The translations under genes and the position numbers were made by a program. DNA of 41,058 nt from a virus. This document shows positions 7,124 through 38,897 of this stretch, piece after piece (positions within the stretch are counted from its first letter, which is position 1; each line of letters starts with the position of its first letter). The stretch lies in the IMG/VR virus record IMGVR_UViG_3300046376_000136, positions 1 to 41,058 of that record; one strand, 5' to 3'. The notes beneath the pieces were generated by a model. It had not been told where the DNA came from and searched no databases. It saw only the letters and a list, made by a program, of their open reading frames with translations.

Positions 7124-9808
7124 TTATGCTGTCCAGCAATCAATGTGGACGTTTACATAGCCACTGGGTTGCAGCGCATTTTGCACGGTTACGGATAGCG
7201 TGTTGGTTCCGGCTGCGCTCCACGTTAGGCCGTTCAGGATCGTTTCTCCGTTGGCAATGACTCCGCAACTGACATAGTTCAGCTTGTTGTTTTTGAAAAG
7301 TACAGTTGCTATCTGGGTCGTGGTTTGACTGGTGGTGGCGGTGAAGGCTACGTGGCCATTGATCACATTTAGTTTTGTCAGCGTCACGCCTGGGGCCGGT
7401 GTGATCGAGACGCCTCCGAGAACGATCGTTATGGGGTTTGAATTGATGTTGTAGAGAAACGATGCAATGGGCGAGTTGGTGTGTCCTGCCATCGTTGTAA
7501 GGGCTTTAATCGTGGTCGAGATTGCAACCGGAATGGGGCCGGTATAGGTCGGGCCGTTACAGGTGCCTGGGGTCGTCGCGGCTGGTGTCGTGCCGTCGGT
7601 GGTGGGACATATCTTGGCTCCGCTGGTCGTCGTGGCCAAACTAACGGACTGCGTCGACGTGTAGGTGCCTGGGAGAGGTAGAGCGGTGGGTGTAGCGGCT
7701 GGCGGCGGCGGCGGGGCCGATATGTTGACGGTGGACGTTCCTGAAATAGTTCCGTTGGTCGCCGTGATGGTATCCGAACCTGCGGAGACTCCTGTAACTA
7801 CGCCGGTCGCGCTCACGGTGGAGTGTGCGCCTGTGTCCTGCCACGTCGGGCCGGTGCAAGGTTCGGTTGAGTTATCGGAATACTTGGCGGTGCAGGTCAT
7901 CGCGAGGGTTGCAGGCATGGCCACGGCTCCGGGGTTGGGCGTGACTGTAAACGTGGTCACCGTGGGCGAGGTGCCTCCTTCAATCGCTCCCATAGTCGGC
8001 GGGGTGGGGCGGAGGTGGCCGAAGTAATCCGTGGTGATGCCGGGGATGGCGATTCCGGCTCCTACAACCGCGCTGGGCGATGCCGGGGCCATGTTGCCAT
8101 AGCCGTAGATGTGCCACGTCATATCGGTTAGCTGTGGGCTGGTGCATAGCGCGTTCGTTTCGCCGTAGAGACCATTGGGACACGGCGCGGTCGCCAGTTG
8201 CCCATAGGTGGCGTTGTGATCGTACGTGCTGCCTCCGTACGGGTATGGGCTGATGGCGTCGACGTACATAGGATTGGGGCTTTTGCCGGTGGCCTGGGCG
8301 CTGGTGTACCCATTGGCGACGGTGTTAGGGAATCCCACGATGACGTTGTCGTCAAAGTTCAAAACGCAAGTCGCATCAGAGCACGCCGGAGACGCTTGGT
8401 TGGTCACTCCTACCGCGATGACTCCAGCGGTGTAGATGGTGTTGTACCTGATATCGGTGTGTGATCCATTGGAGACGGCGACATACAAAGCGGTGTCACT
8501 GGCGCGGCAAAAGTCCGATAGCTGCGCGGCTCCGCCAGGGGCTAATCCGGGCATATGTCCCGGCGCATTGCAATTCCCCACAATGAGGCTGTTGGTCACT
8601 GAGCCGGAGGAGCCTAGCTTGATCTGTTGCCCCATGTTGCCAAAGTCGATCACACCGTTAATGATCACACGGCTTCCGTTGCCGGTAACGTGTAGAAAGT
8701 CGTGGCCGTCCTGGGAGGCATACTGACAACCGCCTCCGTTGATAGTGATAATCCACGGAGGATTTGACTCTACGGTGGTGGTGCCCATGCAATCGCCATA
8801 GCCGCCGTGACTCTGATCCGTGCCGTCTCCGACCTGACCGACACTGCCCCACGGCAGAGTGAAGTTATTGGCGGGTACGATTGGATAGACTTCCGCGAAT
8901 CCGGCGAAGGCCATATTCACGTTATTCAGGGTGAGCGCTCCGCTGCCGGTGGTGCCGTTGCCGGGGTCCATGTTAAACGTCGAGTGAGGGCATCCAGAGG
9001 CAGACACATTGGTCAGCACGGTCGCATCCCCCGTTGCTCCGGCGATGCAGTCGTGCGCGGTGCCGTGAATGTAAACGTCCTGAATGTTGACGTTCGTAAA
9101 AGAGTTAAAAAATTGCAGTCCCTCTGTCGTGTAATCCGACAGCGGATAGCTTGTCGAGCACGGATTCGTGGTCAGCGAAGATGCTTTGTTGCAACTGGTA
9201 TGGTCGGTGATTTCGAAGCATTGGATATCGACATAGCTGTTAGTCGTAAACACCCAGTTGGTTCCATATCCGCCATTCACGACGGTCTTGGCGCTCGGGC
9301 TGGAGCAGTTGGCGTAGTTGATTCCGAGAATGCGAGTGTGCTGGCTGGCGGTTCCTGCTGGCGGAAACGGCGCTCCAGATTGGAACGGGTCGCCGTTGAG
9401 TCCGTATGAATCTGAACCGTTCGGGCCGGATTGACCCACGCGGCAACTGTCGCCGGTCATGCCCTTGCAGTCGATAAGATAGGTGTCGCCTGCGCTCCCT
9501 ACCCATCCCCACTTGGGCGCACCTGCGTTGACGTCGGTGGTGTAGGTGCCGTCTGTCCAGAGCGAACGGATATCGTTGAACGCACAATGGAGATTGGTTC
9601 CGGTTCCACCTGCGGCGGCGTAGCTCTGCGGGTTGGTGCCGTCACATTGGCCGTTGGTGTTGTTGACGGAGTAGCGGCTTCCGCCTGCGGCGTTCACATA
9701 CCATGTGTTTCCTGTGGACCGCCCTATGCGGCTCACACTCACGATCAACGTTGCAATGATCGCCAGCCCCGAGACAATCCAGATGACCTTTTTCGCGGCT
9801 CCTGACAT
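7124..9808 (-). CDS. Large membrane-anchored or secreted beta-helix protein with BIG2-like and chitobiase-C-like domains (894 aa)
   Basis: An N-terminal hydrophobic segment (about 9-27, VIWIVSGLAIIATLIVSV) looks like a signal anchor or uncleaved signal peptide, followed by NTWYVNAAGGSRYS, a start typical of right-handed beta-helix proteins. The beta-helix runs to about 610 (repeated short N/G/S/T-rich strands; many cysteines). A BIG2-like Ig domain (about 616-696) is next, then a Pro linker (about 698-703), a chitobiase C-terminal-like module (about 706-790, GTYTSTQSVSLATTTSGAKI and TTIKAL) and a further beta domain to 894. Such architectures bind or cleave surface polysaccharide. A signal anchor is unusual for a virion fibre, so a host-surface protein expressed from the phage is an alternative. 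Ribosome site GGGAGCCGCC; the 22-bp element lies upstream. Confidence 0.75.
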   Translation of the reverse strand: MSGAAKKVIWIVSGLAIIATLIVSVSRIGRSTGNTWYVNAAGGSRYSVNNTNGQCDGTNPQSYAAAGGTGTNLHCAFNDIRSLWTDGTYTTDVNAGAPKWGWVGSAGDTYLIDCKGMTGDSCRVGQSGPNGSDSYGLNGDPFQSGAPFPPAGTASQHTRILGINYANCSSPSAKTVVNGGYGTNWVFTTNSYVDIQCFEITDHTSCNKASSLTTNPCSTSYPLSDYTTEGLQFFNSFTNVNIQDVYIHGTAHDCIAGATGDATVLTNVSASGCPHSTFNMDPGNGTTGSGALTLNNVNMAFAGFAEVYPIVPANNFTLPWGSVGQVGDGTDQSHGGYGDCMGTTTVESNPPWIITINGGGCQYASQDGHDFLHVTGNGSRVIINGVIDFGNMGQQIKLGSSGSVTNSLIVGNCNAPGHMPGLAPGGAAQLSDFCRASDTALYVAVSNGSHTDIRYNTIYTAGVIAVGVTNQASPACSDATCVLNFDDNVIVGFPNTVANGYTSAQATGKSPNPMYVDAISPYPYGGSTYDHNATYGQLATAPCPNGLYGETNALCTSPQLTDMTWHIYGYGNMAPASPSAVVGAGIAIPGITTDYFGHLRPTPPTMGAIEGGTSPTVTTFTVTPNPGAVAMPATLAMTCTAKYSDNSTEPCTGPTWQDTGAHSTVSATGVVTGVSAGSDTITATNGTISGTSTVNISAPPPPPAATPTALPLPGTYTSTQSVSLATTTSGAKICPTTDGTTPAATTPGTCNGPTYTGPIPVAISTTIKALTTMAGHTNSPIASFLYNINSNPITIVLGGVSITPAPGVTLTKLNVINGHVAFTATTSQTTTQIATVLFKNNKLNYVSCGVIANGETILNGLTWSAAGTNTLSVTVQNALQPSGYVNVHIDCWTA

Positions 9809-10540: not shown

Positions 10541-10764
10541 TATCGAAACCCCACAATCCAACGGCGAATCTCGGCGGGGTTGTCAATCCATCCGGGTAAC
10601 AACATGAACCCGCCTCCAATCTCTAAGCCGGGGTGATTCTCACACTCGGGATGCTTGCGTACATCGCTCAACATCGAGGTGAACGCTTGCCTTGTGTCTC
10701 CGGCGTCGAGGTATTCGAGTGCGCGTCGTTTGCACCATTCAATATGTTCGTCTTGCGTCATCAT
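10540..10764 (-). CDS. Conserved small phage protein (74 aa)
   Basis: The sequence (DEHIEWCKRRALEYLDAGD, FTSMLSDVRKHPE, then a C-terminal RRWIVGFR) matches in outline a common family of small phage proteins of unknown function with the WCKxRALEY and SDLxKHPE signatures. The start is either of two adjacent ATGs (10764 or 10761) overlapping the upstream TGA. Confidence 0.65.
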   Translation of the reverse strand: MMTQDEHIEWCKRRALEYLDAGDTRQAFTSMLSDVRKHPECENHPGLEIGGGFMLLPGWIDNPAEIRRWIVGFR

Positions 10765-11078
10765 TTTATGGACTCTCCACTGTCGGGGTCTACCGTCATT
10801 CCTTCCACTGGCTTGTCGTCCTGGCGCTGCCGGAAGTATCGAAACTCCTGCATGAGTGCGACGGAGGCTCCGGGTGGAAATTTGCTGTCATCGAAGAAGG
10901 ACAACACCATTGCGTCGGCCTCGGTTCGCGCTGCCACTTTCAACAGGTCGACGGCTATCTTGTGCGCCTCGGCAATGGAGAGTTGAGCTTTCTCCCCATT
11001 GACCGACAAGCGCACATAAGGCTGTTTGTCACGTTGCGCTACGATGCCATCCACAAAAACGTGTGTGTCTTGAGCCAT
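10761..11078 (-). CDS. Conserved small phage protein (105 aa)
   Basis: Begins with ATG 11078, four bases after the PEP-CTERM gene, with GGAAGTAAGG as ribosome site. The build YVRLSVNGEKAQLSIAEAHK, then LLKVAARTEADAMVLSFF and FRYFRQR resembles a family of uncharacterised phage proteins that starts with two or three strands followed by a helix. No enzymatic motif. Coupled to the next gene by ATGATGA. Confidence 0.6.
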   Translation of the reverse strand: MAQDTHVFVDGIVAQRDKQPYVRLSVNGEKAQLSIAEAHKIAVDLLKVAARTEADAMVLSFFDDSKFPPGASVALMQEFRYFRQRQDDKPVEGMTVDPDSGESIK

Positions 11079-11082
11079 TCGT

Positions 11083-11844
11083 TTAGGTCCTTACTTCCCT
11101 TCTGCGTCGGAAGGCCACGCCTACACCGACAAAGCCGGTGCCCAACAGGGCAAGCGTGCTCGGCTCCGGTGTACTCGCGATCTGGCCGGAGAAGTCCAAG
11201 CCCTGCTGATTCGATCCGGTCTGTGCAACCACGAAAATCAAGCGATTGACTCCGTCGTTGTTGAAACCGGCATCGAAGCTGCCAAGCTGGAAGCTCCCCG
11301 CCTTTAAGCAGCTAGGGGGGTTGGAGGAGCATTCGGAATCGTTGCCGATATTGCCGAACTGCTCCAGTTGGGTTGCGAGTGAAACCGTGTTGAGGAAGAC
11401 CGCGACCGTGTCATCCGCTAGGACGTTCACGGTTCCTCCCCATACTCCGGTGTTGTTGGTCGTGAAGTCCTGGGCGTAGAAGTAGAAGCCGTTCGCATCG
11501 AATGGCTTCGTGGTGCCGTTCTCTCCGCCTGTTGGTCCTGAGTTCGGATCATAGGAAACCCATTGCGAACTTCCCAGCGTGGTAAAGAAGCCGCTGGGAA
11601 GAGCATAGGTCGCCCCTGAACCGTTCGGGGTGTTATTCGTCCCTGCCGCTATGGTCGGGCCTACGCTTGGAGTTGCCGGAACTGTGTTTTGGGCAGTGCT
11701 TCCCAACACCTGCCCGAGATAGTAAGTGTTCGTCCCGGTTCCGGGGCTGGCCGTGCTGTTTAGGTTGATCACGTCGGCGGATGCATACGCGGTGGACACC
11801 ACAAGAATTGCGAACAAAGCAGTGAATTTAAAAGTACCTTTCAT
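11083..11844 (-). CDS. Phage-encoded PEP-CTERM sorting-signal protein (253 aa)
   Basis: ATG 11844 follows AAGGAGCCGCAC. Residues 1 to about 23 form a classical signal peptide (KGTFKFTALFAILVVSTAYA, then SA). The mature part is Gly/Thr/Asn/Ser-rich and beta-like. The last 30 residues are a textbook PEP-CTERM tail: the PEP motif (about 226-228, in STPEPSTLALLGTG), a hydrophobic helix (FVGVGVAF) and an RRRR cluster. In bacteria such tails are processed by exosortase, and the protein is delivered to the cell surface or extracellular matrix. The phage encodes no exosortase here, so it would rely on the host's. A role in altering the infected cell's surface or matrix is inferred. It is the first gene of its unit, behind copy C of the 22-bp element. 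Confidence 0.85.
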   Translation of the reverse strand: MKGTFKFTALFAILVVSTAYASADVINLNSTASPGTGTNTYYLGQVLGSTAQNTVPATPSVGPTIAAGTNNTPNGSGATYALPSGFFTTLGSSQWVSYDPNSGPTGGENGTTKPFDANGFYFYAQDFTTNNTGVWGGTVNVLADDTVAVFLNTVSLATQLEQFGNIGNDSECSSNPPSCLKAGSFQLGSFDAGFNNDGVNRLIFVVAQTGSNQQGLDFSGQIASTPEPSTLALLGTGFVGVGVAFRRRREVRT

Positions 11845-11896
11845 GTGTGCGGCTCCTTGGTACTGTCGGAGCATGGTTGCCCTGCTGTTGATGCTC

Positions 11897-11918
11897 CGGT
11901 GGGGGCGATTAGGGCCGT
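11897..11918 (-). promoter_or_regulatory. 22-bp upstream element, copy C
   Basis: Exact copy of the 22-bp element, 52 bp upstream of the PEP-CTERM start codon. The longer leader contains an inverted pair, GGAGCAT and ATGCTCC, that can form a stem. Confidence 0.7.
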
Positions 11919-11955
11919 CTCAGGTGGTTTTGTGGATGGTGGCTACAGTATGCAC

Positions 11956-12135
11956 TCATCTGCATCTTTTTTCGTGAAATCTCATCCATCGCCAACGGTT
12001 CCACGGTGGAATCCAATACGGTGGTCGCTCGCCGCACGTATCGCAGACGCAAGGAATCCCCAAGTGATTACCGTAGCGTCTCGGCGTGTAGGAGGTTAAT
12101 GAGTTGGGCGGCAAAACTGCGGCTAGGTAAGTCAT
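11956..12135 (-). CDS. Possible small zinc-ribbon ORF overlapping the gene above (59 aa)
   Basis: The frame ends with PCVCDTCGERPPYW, then WRWMRFHEKRCR: a C-x2-C pair followed by H-x3-C, which looks like a real metal site. The best ATG (12135) lies inside the preceding C2H2 gene in another frame, and no good ribosome site is seen. A TTG just after that gene's stop is an alternative start, as is a programmed frameshift from the upstream gene. The coding assignment is tentative. Confidence 0.35.
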   Translation of the reverse strand: MTYLAAVLPPNSLTSYTPRRYGNHLGIPCVCDTCGERPPYWIPPWNRWRWMRFHEKRCR

Positions 12136-12508
12136 ATTCAAACGCAAGGTTTTTGCATAATTCTTTGAATTGGCCGAAGCCAACGGCGAGGGCGGCTTCG
12201 GTGGTGTAGCGACGAGGTGTAATCCCGCTGGTTTGGCCGTGGCCATTGGTTTGGTGGTTGCTCTGGACGGAGACGGCTTGAGGGAGGGTCGCAAGTTTGT
12301 TGCTCCTTTTCGTGTACTTACGTTTGGTTGGGGGTTGGGCTGCTTTGGCGGCGGCTTTCTTGGCATCTGCTATCTCTTTCCGCCTCTTGATTGCCTGGGC
12401 CGATGTACCCAGTATGCCGTGTGCGGCGCGGCGGTGGATGCCTAGGTGGGCTGCGTCGTCATACTCCTTTTCGCAGTCTGGACACTTCAACTTCTCAGGT
12501 TTGCTCAA
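12068..12508 (-). CDS. C2H2-type zinc-finger protein (about 146 aa)
   Basis: Near the N-terminus, KCPDCEKEYDDAAHLGIHRR and onward forms a C-x2-C-x12-H-x4-H finger, followed by a basic, Lys/Ala-rich linker and a C-terminal helical domain (FGQFKELCKNLAFEYDLPSR). I favour the TTG at 12508, because GAAGGAG stands eight bases before it; an ATG at 12532 would add eight residues and lengthen the overlap with the upstream gene. Single-finger proteins of this type are frequent in phages and may bind nucleic acid or partner proteins. The specific role is unknown. Confidence 0.7.
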   Translation of the reverse strand: MSKPEKLKCPDCEKEYDDAAHLGIHRRAAHGILGTSAQAIKRRKEIADAKKAAAKAAQPPTKRKYTKRSNKLATLPQAVSVQSNHQTNGHGQTSGITPRRYTTEAALAVGFGQFKELCKNLAFEYDLPSRSFAAQLINLLHAETLR

Positions 12509-12830
12509 TGGTGGTTCTCCTTCTTGCGGCATATTCCATTCCCAAGCGAAGGCGGTCCTCCGCTGAGGGGTGGGTTCGTCCGAATACTGGGTGCTCGGTT
12601 GCGAATAACTCCATCACAAGGTCTGCCTGTTGGTGAGAGAGATATCCGGTTACATAGCCGATGTTTGCAAGTAGTCTCTTCCTGGCCTCCTCTTCGTTTA
12701 GATGACTGACATAGTAGAACGCAACCATATCTCGAACCTCTGCCTCCACCAGGGCGGCGGCTTGCTCCTTGGTGGTGATCTGTTTGTCGATCACAAGGTT
12801 TAAGATCTCCATCATGCTACGCATGGTCAT
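12495..12830 (-). CDS. Conserved phage protein (111 aa)
   Basis: Helical protein with AEVRDMVAFYYVSHLNEEEA, NIGYVTGYLS and ELFATEHPVFGRTHPSAED, a combination I recall from a widespread uncharacterised phage family in which GYxxGY and HPxFG are conserved. ATG 12830 overlaps the previous stop (TGATG). Part of a cassette of six small overlapping genes. Confidence 0.65.
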   Translation of the reverse strand: MTMRSMMEILNLVIDKQITTKEQAAALVEAEVRDMVAFYYVSHLNEEEARKRLLANIGYVTGYLSHQQADLVMELFATEHPVFGRTHPSAEDRLRLGMEYAARRRTTIEQT

Positions 12831-32067: not shown

Positions 32068-33213
32068 TTAGGTGATGACCGACTGTGCATCCGTGTAGCG
32101 GACACGTTGAACCGGGTCCGGTGGCAGGGTGCAGGTGTACATCGTGTTGTACGAAGCAAACCCGCCGATCATGCGCGAAGGATCGTAGCCGCTCGGCTCC
32201 GTCAATCGACGTACCCAGACGTTCAAGTTTCTCCAGTCGCCGTCACCAATTTGCGTGTTCTCTTTCGCGCCGAAAGAGATTCCGATAATCCCGTCTTTAC
32301 CGATGACATAGGTGCGGAGTTTGTTCGGGGTTCCGACGGTCAGCTTGACGAGCGTGGATTGATGGAAGCTCGCGCCTCCCCAGTCAATCACTGCCACTTC
32401 ATCGCCGTCCGGTGAGGGAAGCTCGCGCAATTTCTCCTGGCCTTCCGCCGTTCTCTTCAGAACATCGGTAATGCCGTTGGGTTGAGTGCTGATCAGGATG
32501 TCTCCGACAATCAGCGGATGGATGACTCCGGTAAAGCGTCCTTGGTCGAAGGGCAACGCATTGACGGCGGCTAGAGACTGCACCATCGAAGTGATGTCCT
32601 GCGCGATAAGTCCGGTGCCAATCGGTACATGGACTACGGTTGCATCAACGACGCTGGCTCCGTCGACGGTGTTCTGAATGATGATGTTGATGACCTGGGC
32701 CATGCGGTATGCCATCTGAACCCCCAACGCTTCGAGCGCGGGGTCGAGGGCAGTTTGCAGAGCGTACGTTGAGATATTCGCGTAGTCGGCATAGTTTCCG
32801 ATGGTGCTGGTGTTCGACACGACCGACACGGTTAGGCCGGTTCCTATCGTTCCTTCCGGTGCCTGCGTCGTCGGCGGAGCCGGAAGATTTTGATACATGA
32901 ACAGTTGCAATTTATTACCGGAGTTCTCGTCCAGCGTGCGCCGCGCGGTGCATCGAACCCACGGCGTCTCCGCCTTCAGGTTCTCGACGAAAACCTTGTC
33001 GTAACTAGTAACTACACTTTGCGGCAAGTTGGTGGTTAAGTTGGAGGCTGGCGACACGCCAACCCCCAACGCGCCGTGAACGCGATAACGCGCTACGTCT
33101 CCCGTCCAAAAGAAGAGTTGACCGCCAACACCTGCGGCAAACTCGATGAACGGAATCACTATATTCCGGCAAAACTTCCTGCCGCGCTCGGCGGCTATGG
33201 ATGTATTCCGCAT
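32068..33213 (-). CDS. Major capsid protein, N4-gp56-like (381 aa)
   Basis: Length and layout fit the N4-gp56 family of HK97-fold capsid proteins: VVTSYDKVFVENLKAETPWV near the N-terminus, RRTLDENSGNKLQLFMYQNL, then YADYANISTYALQTALDPAL, with a helical stretch (ALGVQMAYRMAQVINIIIQN). A late part has VIGKDGIIGISFGAKE and a final DPSRMIGGFASYNTMYT. The scaffold gene lies 24 bp upstream, the usual order. ATG 33213 follows AGAGGGGGATAGTCAC. The exact N-terminus is uncertain, since the first 40 residues are unlike the family. Confidence 0.75.
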   Translation of the reverse strand: MRNTSIAAERGRKFCRNIVIPFIEFAAGVGGQLFFWTGDVARYRVHGALGVGVSPASNLTTNLPQSVVTSYDKVFVENLKAETPWVRCTARRTLDENSGNKLQLFMYQNLPAPPTTQAPEGTIGTGLTVSVVSNTSTIGNYADYANISTYALQTALDPALEALGVQMAYRMAQVINIIIQNTVDGASVVDATVVHVPIGTGLIAQDITSMVQSLAAVNALPFDQGRFTGVIHPLIVGDILISTQPNGITDVLKRTAEGQEKLRELPSPDGDEVAVIDWGGASFHQSTLVKLTVGTPNKLRTYVIGKDGIIGISFGAKENTQIGDGDWRNLNVWVRRLTEPSGYDPSRMIGGFASYNTMYTCTLPPDPVQRVRYTDAQSVIT

Positions 33214-34449: not shown

Positions 34450-34841
34450 GCGATTGCCTCCTGCTCCTCGCTCGCATCGTGTTGAGCGAGTCTCTTGGCT
34501 GCGGCGCTGGCGGGTACATCTCCCTCCAATAACTTCATTTCGGCCTCTGTTACGGAGCGTACGTCGCGGAGCATGAATCCAACCTGAAGGCATATCTCCC
34601 CCAGTCTGGTAATCCGGGCGAAGTATTTTCCTGAATTCCCCATCTCCGTTTGCGTGAGGTCTTCTATCAAGCCGCGCTCCCACAAGGGCTGCATGATCTG
34701 CTCCAGCGTCAACACGTCGTCTTCGTCGCGGAGTGCGCCAATGCCGATACCGCCAAAACGATCGCGGCGCTTTTGTTCGACAAGCATTTCGAGGGCGCGG
34801 CGATGGCGGAGCGGGATAGCCATGAACTTAGCGGATTCCAT
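34446..34841 (-). CDS. Small head-module protein (131 aa)
   Basis: ATG 34841 overlaps the portal's TGA (TGATG) and has GGAGGAAGTTG before it; the long frame from 35144 runs inside the portal gene and is rejected. It may contain a winged-helix-like arrangement (LTLEQIMQPLWERGLIEDLT, then GKYFARITRLGEICLQVG). Function unknown. Confidence 0.6.
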   Translation of the reverse strand: MESAKFMAIPLRHRRALEMLVEQKRRDRFGGIGIGALRDEDDVLTLEQIMQPLWERGLIEDLTQTEMGNSGKYFARITRLGEICLQVGFMLRDVRSVTEAEMKLLEGDVPASAAAKRLAQHDASEEQEAIA

Positions 34842-36958
34842 CAACTTCCTCCTGACGTGCCGAAGAATTGGCTTGCCTGCATCTGGCGCTCGTCGGCGGT
34901 GCGCTCGGCAAAACTGGCGGCGCGTTCGAGCGGCGATTCCACAAGCGTTTTGTGGGTGGTGTCTACGCTCTTGCTGGCAATTCGCCCGGCAATTTTTTTG
35001 TCTTCCAATTCCATGTCGTTTTGGTGCTTCTGCTGTAGCTCTGCCGCGCTCGCCTGGGCTTTGATCGCCATAGGATTCTGTTGCGTCATCGTCTGCATTT
35101 CCTGTGGCGTCATCGGGACAATCAGGTCGGCGCGGTTCTTCCACTCCGACATATCCAGCACCATCTTTACTAGCTCCATCACATTGACCTTGTAGCCAAT
35201 CTGCGAGAGTTGCTGAATGAGTGCCTGATTGCCGAAGACTTCCAACAGGAAGGGAAGGGCCTGGGCCATGCGGTTCCGTGCGGCCAGCTTGGTTCCGGCC
35301 AGCGTCTCAAACTTCACGTTGGTCTTCATGAAGTCGCCAAAGTCCACGATGAGGTCTTGGGTGCGCTCACCAATCCGGTCGCGGATTTCTTTGATCGGCA
35401 TCCGCTCCTTCGTCATCTGGAATAAGAAGTTGAGGAAGGGCAAAAAAACCCCGTCGATGAATCTCTCGACGGGGCTTTGCAGTCGTCCTGACGATGCGGC
35501 CTGAAGCATCCCGGCTCCCGTGCCAGAATGCCCCACGCTGCTGCCGCGTCCTGGGAGAACGCCTTGTACTGTAGCCTGATCCGCGCCGGTCGCGCCTTCG
35601 CTCGAACCGACAACCGCTTGAATCGCTCTCCAGCCATCGGGGGGTACCTGCGGCTGCGGTACCAGGGCAACGGCTTTGGTGGCATCGTTGCCGTCCACCA
35701 TGCGGATGCCCCCCAGCCTTCGCCGTTGGTCCTGAGTCGGCACATTAGCTCCCCTAGCAATGGCGTACTCGGGCTGAACGGCGAAGGCTAAAATGTCAAG
35801 GATCGCGTTAATCATTCCTTGCTCGACTCGTTGATCCGCGCCGGAGATGCGGCCTACTCCCATTCCATATCCGCTGTTGTCGATGTCCCAATAGTTCGCG
35901 CTCAAAAAGGGTTTTTCGGGGAGTTTGTGTTTGCCGTTGCGGATGACGCATTTCTGTTGCAGCACAGCGCGGCAATCTGTTTTGCTCCACCACTCCAAAA
36001 CCTGCATCGGCTTCAATAGCGGGTCTTCACTCCAGTCCGTGTCCTGCTGCGCGGCATGGTGGACGCTGGTGTTAACCGTCATCGCCTCTTCGGTGCCGTC
36101 GATAGGCTCGGTCTGCTCCTCGTCCGACATAAAGATGTGGCGGAGGATTTCGTCACTGGGGATGTCGTAGTCGGGATTCTCGCGGAGCTTGGTGAGGTCG
36201 TCGTAGTTGAGATAGTGACGGCGAACGATGTACTTGGCTTTCCATAGCTGGTTCGGGTTCTTCCACTTGGGGTCGACAAAAATTTCTCCGAGTTCGCACT
36301 TCTCGAAGACGGGCCGGTTGCGGGTTACCTCTTCCTCGACGACTTCAAACTCGTCGGACTCTTCGGTAAAAACCGTCATCGGTTTGCCTATCGGCATCGG
36401 CACTTGCGGCGGGGCTTTCTTCCTCCGATAGTGCGCCTCGATCTTGGTCTCGGTCTCCCACCCGATGTAGAAAATGACGGTGCCGGAGTTCACCATCCCC
36501 TGAATCCCATAACTACACTCTTGCTTGAAGCAGATTTCATCAAGCAGTTCGGAGACTAGGTCCGTCCATGCCCTTGTCGTGTCCTGGCTGGTGGCAGGGC
36601 GGGGCCGCACTAGGAACGGCGTGGTATCCGAAAAAACAGCCCCTGTTATGGCAGGGGCTAAAGAGTTGGTCTGTTTGGCAACTGTGAAGCGTGAAACGTT
36701 TGACCGGGTGACGGTCGAACCTTCAAACACGCTCATGGTGCGCGGCGATTGATAGAGGATGTCGCTTTCTGACCATTGCAGCGGCCAGCGGCGGTCATTC
36801 TGCCATGCGCTTGCCCGTTCGTAGTCCTGCACCACGATGCTGATAACGGCGGCGTCGGTGTACTTGGGCGGGATGGTCGGGTCGGGAGAGGTCGATACCT
36901 CACGCGGCAAAACCGGCGCATGAGGACTACTCTCCATCTGTAAAACAGCGGACGCCAT
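34841..36958 (-). CDS. Portal protein (705 aa)
   Basis: P22-like portal by length and pattern. It has an N-terminal YERASAWQNDRRWPLQWSES and a wing region with GTVIFYIGWE, EIFVDPKWKN and YIVRRHYL. A stem/clip region holds PFLSANYWDIDNSGYGMGVG and AFAVQPEYA, and a C-terminal helical barrel-like stretch follows (AAELQQKHQNDMELEDKKIA). It forms the dodecameric DNA gate at one capsid vertex. Two intrinsic-terminator-like hairpins oriented with transcription lie inside it (35442-35474 and 36631-36659), which is unusual. ATG 36958 has GAAGGTCTAAG upstream. Confidence 0.85.
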   Translation of the reverse strand: MASAVLQMESSPHAPVLPREVSTSPDPTIPPKYTDAAVISIVVQDYERASAWQNDRRWPLQWSESDILYQSPRTMSVFEGSTVTRSNVSRFTVAKQTNSLAPAITGAVFSDTTPFLVRPRPATSQDTTRAWTDLVSELLDEICFKQECSYGIQGMVNSGTVIFYIGWETETKIEAHYRRKKAPPQVPMPIGKPMTVFTEESDEFEVVEEEVTRNRPVFEKCELGEIFVDPKWKNPNQLWKAKYIVRRHYLNYDDLTKLRENPDYDIPSDEILRHIFMSDEEQTEPIDGTEEAMTVNTSVHHAAQQDTDWSEDPLLKPMQVLEWWSKTDCRAVLQQKCVIRNGKHKLPEKPFLSANYWDIDNSGYGMGVGRISGADQRVEQGMINAILDILAFAVQPEYAIARGANVPTQDQRRRLGGIRMVDGNDATKAVALVPQPQVPPDGWRAIQAVVGSSEGATGADQATVQGVLPGRGSSVGHSGTGAGMLQAASSGRLQSPVERFIDGVFLPFLNFLFQMTKERMPIKEIRDRIGERTQDLIVDFGDFMKTNVKFETLAGTKLAARNRMAQALPFLLEVFGNQALIQQLSQIGYKVNVMELVKMVLDMSEWKNRADLIVPMTPQEMQTMTQQNPMAIKAQASAAELQQKHQNDMELEDKKIAGRIASKSVDTTHKTLVESPLERAASFAERTADERQMQASQFFGTSGGS
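35442..35474 (-). terminator. Intrinsic-terminator-like hairpin inside the portal gene (distal)
   Basis: CCCCGTCGA (35449-35457) pairs perfectly with TCGACGGGG (35466-35474), and seven A residues (35442-35448) give a seven-U run on the portal mRNA. It lies in frame, encoding part of SPVERFIDGVFLP. It has every property of a Rho-independent terminator in the sense direction. Confidence 0.75.
36631..36659 (-). terminator. Intrinsic-terminator-like hairpin inside the portal gene (proximal)
   Basis: AGCCCCTG (36638-36645) pairs perfectly with CAGGGGCT (36652-36659) around a 6-nt loop, and AAAAAA (36631-36636) gives a U-run on the - strand. It encodes APAITGAVFSD near residue 100-110 of the portal. 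Transcripts stopping here would contain only the first 300 or so bases of the portal gene. Confidence 0.7.
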
Positions 36959-37160: not shown

Positions 37161-38897
37161 CTACTCCAGCCCTGGCATGATGACTTCTAACCCTTGATCT
37201 GTAAACAGATGCTCCTCGAAGCTCGACAGCGCCTCAACCTCCTCCGGCTCCGGCTCTGGCGGGGTATACACTCCGCGCCCATAGATGAGGTTGTACTTAT
37301 CGCGTTCGCGCATCATCGTCCACGCAAGGTCTTCCTCTTCAAGCTCGGTGGCGGCGATGCTCACCGGAAGGTTGTCGGCCACGCGGGAGACGACATCCGG
37401 CAACCCGTCATCCTCGGTCATGCCGTACTGTACGAAGCCTTGGACAAGTGGCTTGGTCTTCAGCCCGTTAGAGAAGAAGAGGCGCGAGGATGCCAGTAGC
37501 GGCTCCATGTGGCGGATGCGGGTGTCGCGCTCTCCGCTGTCGCCTTGAAACTCCGTCCATGTGATGGTGATGTCCCATCCCGTTGTCAAACTGTAGTTAT
37601 TGATGGCGGCTTGCATCAACCGCGCCCCTGGCGAGTCCTCGATCACAACGCGGTGCATGCCGTTGCGTCGGGCGGTATCGTGGATGATTCGGGCGAGTGC
37701 CGATGGCTTGTAGTGACCCTGCAAAGTCTCCGCGATATACATGCGGTTGCGGTGCATAATGCCTACCGCGCCGGAGGTCGTTAGCCAGTTCAGGCTCCGG
37801 CAGGGAAGCCGGAAGTGAATGCACCTCTGACCCTCCATCGGCAAGTCGCCCTCGTCCACCATCGCGGCCAACATCTGGCTCTCGGTGAATACCAGTTCGG
37901 CGGCTCCGTAGCTGTCGAGCATGTATTGGCTCATGAAGTATTCGTAATCGGCCTCATACTCCTCACGGAGAAATTCGTAGCTGAGGATGGCGGGAAACAG
38001 TAGCTCTAGTTCGTCCGGGTTGGGGAACCCGTTGGGGTCTAGGCGCTCGCCGTTCAACAGCCGCAGGGCAGGCTTGAAAACGCGGTGATAGCTTCCCGGC
38101 CTCGCCGTCAAAACCTCATCGCTGAAGGTGTCGCCTAGGCCGTACGGCGTCCCGATCTTTATCTCGAAGCCGGTTGGCTTAAGAATCTTGCGCGTGAGCT
38201 TATACGCCTTGGTGACGGCAACCCGGCCCTCATACTTCTTTGAGTTGCGGTTGGTGTTGATGTCGTCGTAGATCAACACGTCCGGGTGCCATCCGGTTGT
38301 GTTCGAGTCAATCGAGTTGGCCCATATCATCGGTTCCACGATCTTAGGGTCGTGCTGGCGGAGCAGACAGGTGAATTGCCCTGCTTCCTTGGCTGGCTTG
38401 GACACGCAGAGTTCGGGGAAGAGTGCTTGAAACAGCGTCGGCGGTCGGCTCGGGGGTTTGACGAAGAAGCTGGCTATCTGATCGACAAAGGCGAAGGCCA
38501 AGTCTTTGCCTCCGCTCATGATCAGAATCGCAATCGTCATGTAGTAATGCAGGATGAGTTGTACACAGTAGGCGATGTCGAGAGTGGTCTTGAAGGTGTT
38601 GCGCGGGTAGAGCAGGGTCCGTCTCCGCTTGCGCCCGATGTGGAGTTCCGCAACTGTCTGCGCCGGGTCTATCTCGGGGAAAAATCGGATGGCTTCGTGG
38701 TGAATGGCTTCGTCAATCAGGCAGTAACCCAACACATAGCACAGCGCGAGAAGGTTGGTCTTGCAGCAACGACGGCCATCCTCCTTCACCTCGTCGTCGT
38801 GCAAAACAAGGTCCGTCAGTTCCGTGCGCCATGCGCGATTGTCGCCGCGCTCTTGGTTCGGATCGCGGAGCCGTCGCCAGTTGAAATGTTGCTTCAT
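37161..38897 (-). CDS. terL: Terminase large subunit (578 aa)
   Basis: ATPase motor and nuclease of DNA packaging. Walker A-like LLYPRNTFKTTLD at about 95-107 (with arginine and an NTFKTT loop common in phage terminases) and Walker B VLIYDDIN at 207-214. The following segment IKIGTPYGLGDTF fits the coupling region. The C-terminal nuclease half has VGIMHRNRMYIAETL, VVIEDSPGARLM and the late acidic DGLPDVVSRVAD. The ATG at 38897 overlaps the preceding stop (ATGA). No small terminase was recognised, though a short upstream gene could serve. Confidence 0.9.
   Translation of the reverse strand: MKQHFNWRRLRDPNQERGDNRAWRTELTDLVLHDDEVKEDGRRCCKTNLLALCYVLGYCLIDEAIHHEAIRFFPEIDPAQTVAELHIGRKRRRTLLYPRNTFKTTLDIAYCVQLILHYYMTIAILIMSGGKDLAFAFVDQIASFFVKPPSRPPTLFQALFPELCVSKPAKEAGQFTCLLRQHDPKIVEPMIWANSIDSNTTGWHPDVLIYDDINTNRNSKKYEGRVAVTKAYKLTRKILKPTGFEIKIGTPYGLGDTFSDEVLTARPGSYHRVFKPALRLLNGERLDPNGFPNPDELELLFPAILSYEFLREEYEADYEYFMSQYMLDSYGAAELVFTESQMLAAMVDEGDLPMEGQRCIHFRLPCRSLNWLTTSGAVGIMHRNRMYIAETLQGHYKPSALARIIHDTARRNGMHRVVIEDSPGARLMQAAINNYSLTTGWDITITWTEFQGDSGERDTRIRHMEPLLASSRLFFSNGLKTKPLVQGFVQYGMTEDDGLPDVVSRVADNLPVSIAATELEEEDLAWTMMRERDKYNLIYGRGVYTPPEPEPEEVEALSSFEEHLFTDQGLEVIMPGLE

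Follow-up and report, generated by a model that had tools for sequence, protein, structure and literature searches.

A predicted exosortase substrate carried as single-gene cargo by a phage of probable Acidobacteriota hosts

Exosortase, a sorting system found in environmental bacteria, is widespread but still little understood. In the pathway as it is established or proposed, substrates are exported by the Sec system, held by a C-terminal helix, cut near a PEP motif and released to the cell surface or matrix. PEP-CTERM proteins (TIGR02595 / PF07589) are the proposed substrates of the exosortase EpsH/Xrt (Haft et al., 2006; PMC1569441). Here we describe such a protein encoded within a virus record of 41 058 nucleotides (IMGVR_UViG_3300046376_000136), which was analysed over its full length and is referred to below as the window. 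The window protein resembles the described family in its signal peptide, its PEP motif followed by a hydrophobic helix and an Arg cluster at the extreme C-terminus, its variable body rich in Ser, Thr and Asn, and the intergenic gap upstream of its gene. It differs in being encoded by a phage in which no exosortase was found, so that any processing would need a host enzyme, and in having a body for which no homologue was found.

The closest report on viruses is a passing mention of TIGR03118 proteins, which were counted among genes of cellular origin in virus contigs from Yellowstone (PMC11003980). These proteins likewise carry a putative exosortase-interaction tail in virus contigs, but they belong to a different family and the mention gives neither phage context nor function. 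A full-text literature search, whose coverage left out most subscription journals, returned no description of phage-borne exosortase substrates.

The PEP-CTERM gene and its product

The gene is located at 11083–11844 on the minus strand, exactly where the sequence-only reading had placed it, and encodes a protein of 253 aa composed of a signal peptide, a low-complexity body rich in Ser, Thr and Asn, and an exosortase tail. It starts with ATG, and a Shine-Dalgarno site (AAGGAG) lies 8 nt upstream. The GC content is 0.570 compared with 0.571 for the phage, GC3 falls within the phage range and the trinucleotide content is phage-like. Together with the Shine-Dalgarno site, these values argue for an adapted, expressible gene. 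Neither a sigma-70-like site upstream of the gene nor a terminator-like site directly downstream on its strand was detected.

The predicted Sec signal peptide covers residues 1–23 (MKGTFKFTALFAILVVSTAYASA; 11776–11844, minus strand). It displays the h-region and AXA site typical of such peptides, with a peak at residues 5–23 in a prediction by hydropathy only. The sorting tail comprises residues 226–253 (PEPSTLALLGTGFVGVGVAFRRRREVRT) and, with the stop codon, positions 11083–11169 on the minus strand; PEP is found at residue 226, a hydrophobic stretch at 230–245 and the Arg cluster in the last 8 of the 253 residues. The tail (STPEPSTLALLGTGFVGVGVAFRRRREVRT) reached 30.8 bits with PF07589 against a Pfam cut-off of 20.7, the match extending over residues 224–248, and 26.6 bits with TIGR02595 against an NCBIfam cut-off of 16. 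When the whole record was searched with PF07589 the E-value for the tail was 1.8e-9, and none of 14 control genomes gave a match; the tail match is therefore well beyond chance. In the mature body 33% of the residues are Ser, Thr or Asn, acidic residues (12) outnumber basic ones (3), and cysteine occurs twice; this composition agrees with what Haft et al. (PMC1569441) describe for PEP-CTERM proteins. At the level of sequence, these data confirm the window protein as a PEP-CTERM protein with all substrate elements present, as had been proposed from its tail and signal peptide.

No homologues of the body were found in viral_contigs, genome_contigs, INPHARED, PLSDB or PDB. BLAST without composition correction gave matches to other viral PEP-CTERM proteins, all of which disappeared after removal of the tail, and the body without tail was similar to no other viral PEP-CTERM body. 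A scan with a guessed jelly-roll motif, 'ADDTVxVFLN', led to 8 contigs without further similarity. The single-sequence structure model was unusable (pLDDT 30), and the protein had no match in PHROGs.

The phage, its likely host and the insertion slot

The source record is a linear 41-kb IMG/VR virus contig encoding, on the minus strand, an SU10-like portal protein (34841–36958; PF23899, 84.9 bits), a major capsid protein (32068–33213) and a terminase large subunit (37161–38897; PHROG 38, 100.5 bits). Among 50 697 phage records, Tunturiibacter phage Tunturi_3 (PP885686.1) was the only match for the portal (37% identity over 83%) and the capsid (41%), and it was also the best match for the terminase. 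Tunturi_3 is a podovirus with a host in Acidobacteriota (PMC11924767). Because portal and capsid match only this phage among isolates, the host of the window phage is likely to belong to Acidobacteriota, which bears out the suggestion that the gene could serve as a clue to the host group. Tunturi_3 differs from the window phage in its genome size, 97.6 kb compared with 41 kb, and lacks a PEP-CTERM match. One Granulicella plasmid was also devoid of such a match, although a single plasmid says little about the phylum.

The window phage is a short-tailed soil phage. By its portal, 55 close relatives were retrieved from IMG/VR, and 85 when a profile was used. A degenerate-pattern search of genome_contigs (84 980 species) found no portal relative, which is consistent with a group that is mainly lytic, and no integrase was noticed among those genes that were read; the term 'lytic-type' is plausible. 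Gene order was mostly collinear with the window across 23 related IMG/VR records. Together with the terminase, portal and capsid genes, this collinearity supports the earlier view that the PEP-CTERM gene is part of a true phage genome.

The gene is flanked on the left by a conserved 105-aa neighbour (10761–11078, minus strand), whose orthologues in relatives are 45–79% identical, and on the right by a second conserved gene (11956–12366, minus strand) with orthologues of 44–77% identity, which overlaps an ORF at 12068–12532 in another frame. Only 33–77 bp separate the homologous stretches of both neighbours in four relatives (G001, G002, G025 and G021). Synteny, the neighbour gaps in relatives and junction alignment delimit an inserted segment of approximately 0.87 kb (11087–11955), and the alignment showed that the extra DNA in the window consists of nothing but the PEP-CTERM gene and its 111-bp upstream gap. 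The short distance between the neighbours in relatives and the presence of orthologues on both sides thus indicate that a single gene was cleanly inserted and make a chimera very unlikely. A position between two genes that are direct neighbours in relatives is expected of a moron gene, and the window gene has such a position. None of 59 related records, some of them fragments, contained a PEP-CTERM gene over the cut-off, which marks the window gene as private single-gene cargo. In other relatives the same slot is occupied by small unrelated ORFs, whose number varies. In one relative (G023, L087; slot at approximately 4.1–4.8 kb) an 85-aa ORF has a twin-arginine-like signal (MQLSRRSFIASLAGALA), so that exported cargo of other kinds may also be accommodated there.

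Two further genes of the window phage were noted. An 894-aa, exported-looking protein is encoded near the PEP-CTERM gene (7124–9808, minus strand); it has an N-terminal membrane segment and chitobiase C-terminal-like and Big_2 domains, diverged homologues occur in four relatives, and it is possibly a second surface-directed phage protein. The other, at 1396–2286 on the plus strand, encodes an ArdC-like anti-restriction protein that contains a zincin-like peptidase domain (PF08401, PF18818) and is present in several relatives.

PEP-CTERM genes in other viral contigs

A survey of viral contigs for PEP-CTERM tails, as recommended by the sequence-only reading, was carried out at two levels of stringency. 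A strict tail pattern matched three other contigs. With a relaxed, degenerate pattern in the correct register, at least 120 stretches were obtained from IMG/VR, compared with 13 matches when the pattern was shifted by one residue out of register as a rough chance control. Among the matches listed, 83 matching frames were read; nearly all have a PEP-CTERM tail at their end, and the majority of those with the tail are complete proteins that also bear a signal peptide. PF07589 exceeded its cut-off in 49 of the 50 records searched from the same matches. The claim that phage-borne substrates are rarely described holds for the literature, where they are nearly absent; rarity in nature is not supported.

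Two PEP-CTERM genes, with tails 626–1658 bp apart, were present in 13 of the 50 records (G051, G062, G066, G068, G071, G073, G074, G077, G078, G080, G083, G085 and G086). Twenty-two records were assembled; in 7 of them the ends overlap by 95–123 bp, the pattern of a complete circular genome, and in five a terminase, portal or capsid was confirmed by PHROGs. No gene was common to the window and these 22 records. As judged from sequence, PEP-CTERM genes appear to be frequent in environmental phages, including circular-looking genomes unrelated to the window, and this commonness suggests that phages exploit the host sorting route during infection. In one record (G076) the PEP-CTERM gene lies at the extreme contig end, and some PEP-CTERM viral records may include host flanks. 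In a separate phage lineage (L121 and L123, from G042 and G044) the PEP-CTERM gene adjoins a possibly lysis-related gene of 160 aa, and in G044 another PEP-CTERM gene lies approximately 1.7 kb away on the opposite strand.

Among the matches listed, 41 of the 83 proteins (L143–L220, viral_contigs) form one family, here called family A, which was defined by iterated profile search with the body alone (alignment A2); it is thus the body that is conserved, not just the tail. The phages carrying it range from approximately 40 to 70% GC. Ten representatives scanned had no PHROG match, no NCBIfam model other than the tail domain exceeded its cut-off in the representatives scanned, and no relatives were found in INPHARED or PLSDB. 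The nearest NCBIfam model was the flocculation-associated PEP-CTERM protein PepA (NF033554), which reached 40 bits over residues 37–212 against a cut-off of 80; the window protein does not match this model. Structure prediction gave an all-beta domain flanked by the signal helix and the C-terminal helix (pLDDT 80), with no fold match in PDB or BFVD. After pairs with high, saturated dS had been left out, the closest pairs showed dN/dS values of mostly 0.09–0.29, with at least 0.49 in a few pairs. The low values point to purifying selection and hence imply a selected function in the phages carrying family A. The family A profile gave E = 0.17 with the body of the window protein, which is accordingly placed outside the family.

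Proposed role of the window gene

We regard it as fairly probable that the window gene is single-gene cargo whose product is Sec-exported, sorted by the host exosortase and active in modifying the host surface; this is supported by the finding that unrelated phages carry PEP-CTERM genes as well. The gene would be a moron that occupies a variable slot in the genome of a short-tailed phage with a probable Acidobacteriota host. During infection the host Sec system would export the protein, and its C-terminal helix would anchor it in the inner membrane. The host exosortase would then cleave at the PEP motif, as inferred from the signal peptide and tail, and the mature Ser/Thr/Asn-rich protein of approximately 200 aa would reach the outer surface or the exopolysaccharide. 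The surface of the infected cell might thereby be altered, for instance if receptors are masked or crowded as a defence against rival phages. Our preferred guess is such a change of the surface, by which rivals would be excluded, with a change of the matrix or a decoy for exosortase as alternatives; searches of Pfam, NCBIfam and PHROGs gave no sequence match between the window protein and a known exclusion protein.

The single occurrence against none in 59 relatives, and the small unrelated ORFs that fill the variable slot elsewhere, would also be expected if a chance recombination event had placed a bacterial PEP-CTERM gene in a tolerant slot and the phage gained nothing from it. We consider a neutral passenger of this kind rather unlikely, since the ORF is intact, has a ribosome site and shares the composition of the phage, and since PEP-CTERM genes recur in unrelated phages and are under purifying selection in family A, to which the window protein itself does not belong. 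Alternatively, the tail could occupy the host exosortase, so that PEP-CTERM and matrix proteins of the host would not be displayed and the matrix would be loosened for release or re-infection. A full tail match on a body unlike other viral PEP-CTERM bodies is what would be expected if only the tail counts. Against this, a decoy has no need of a 200-aa body, and family A conserves the body too; we judge this reading improbable. The position of some PEP-CTERM genes near the terminase in other phages might point to a virion or lysis component with a chance PEP-like tail and no role in sorting, which is very improbable for a protein that has a signal peptide and a three-part tail, passes both cut-offs and has no PHROG match. 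Finally, an assembly chimera, which the sequence-only reading had named as a condition that would undo its proposal, or packaged host DNA could be suspected because elsewhere the tail domain serves bacteria as a sorting signal and the window is known from assembled sequence without reads, but this is largely refuted by the 0.87-kb insert with phage orthologues on both sides, its clean junctions and its phage-like composition, and we give it hardly any weight.

Beyond this locus, we tentatively put forward, at somewhat less than even confidence, that exosortase sorting is a general and so far undescribed route by which many unrelated phages place their own proteins on the host surface or matrix. 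The window gene with its private body would be one case within a cargo class to which a conserved phage-borne family belongs as well. If exosortase substrates are routinely encoded by phages, a host enzyme would be the means by which infection remodels the host surface and the biofilm matrix. This would provide testable phage functions, such as exclusion and matrix change, as well as a clue to host range, pointing to exosortase-positive hosts, and it would supply natural substrates for the study of exosortase.
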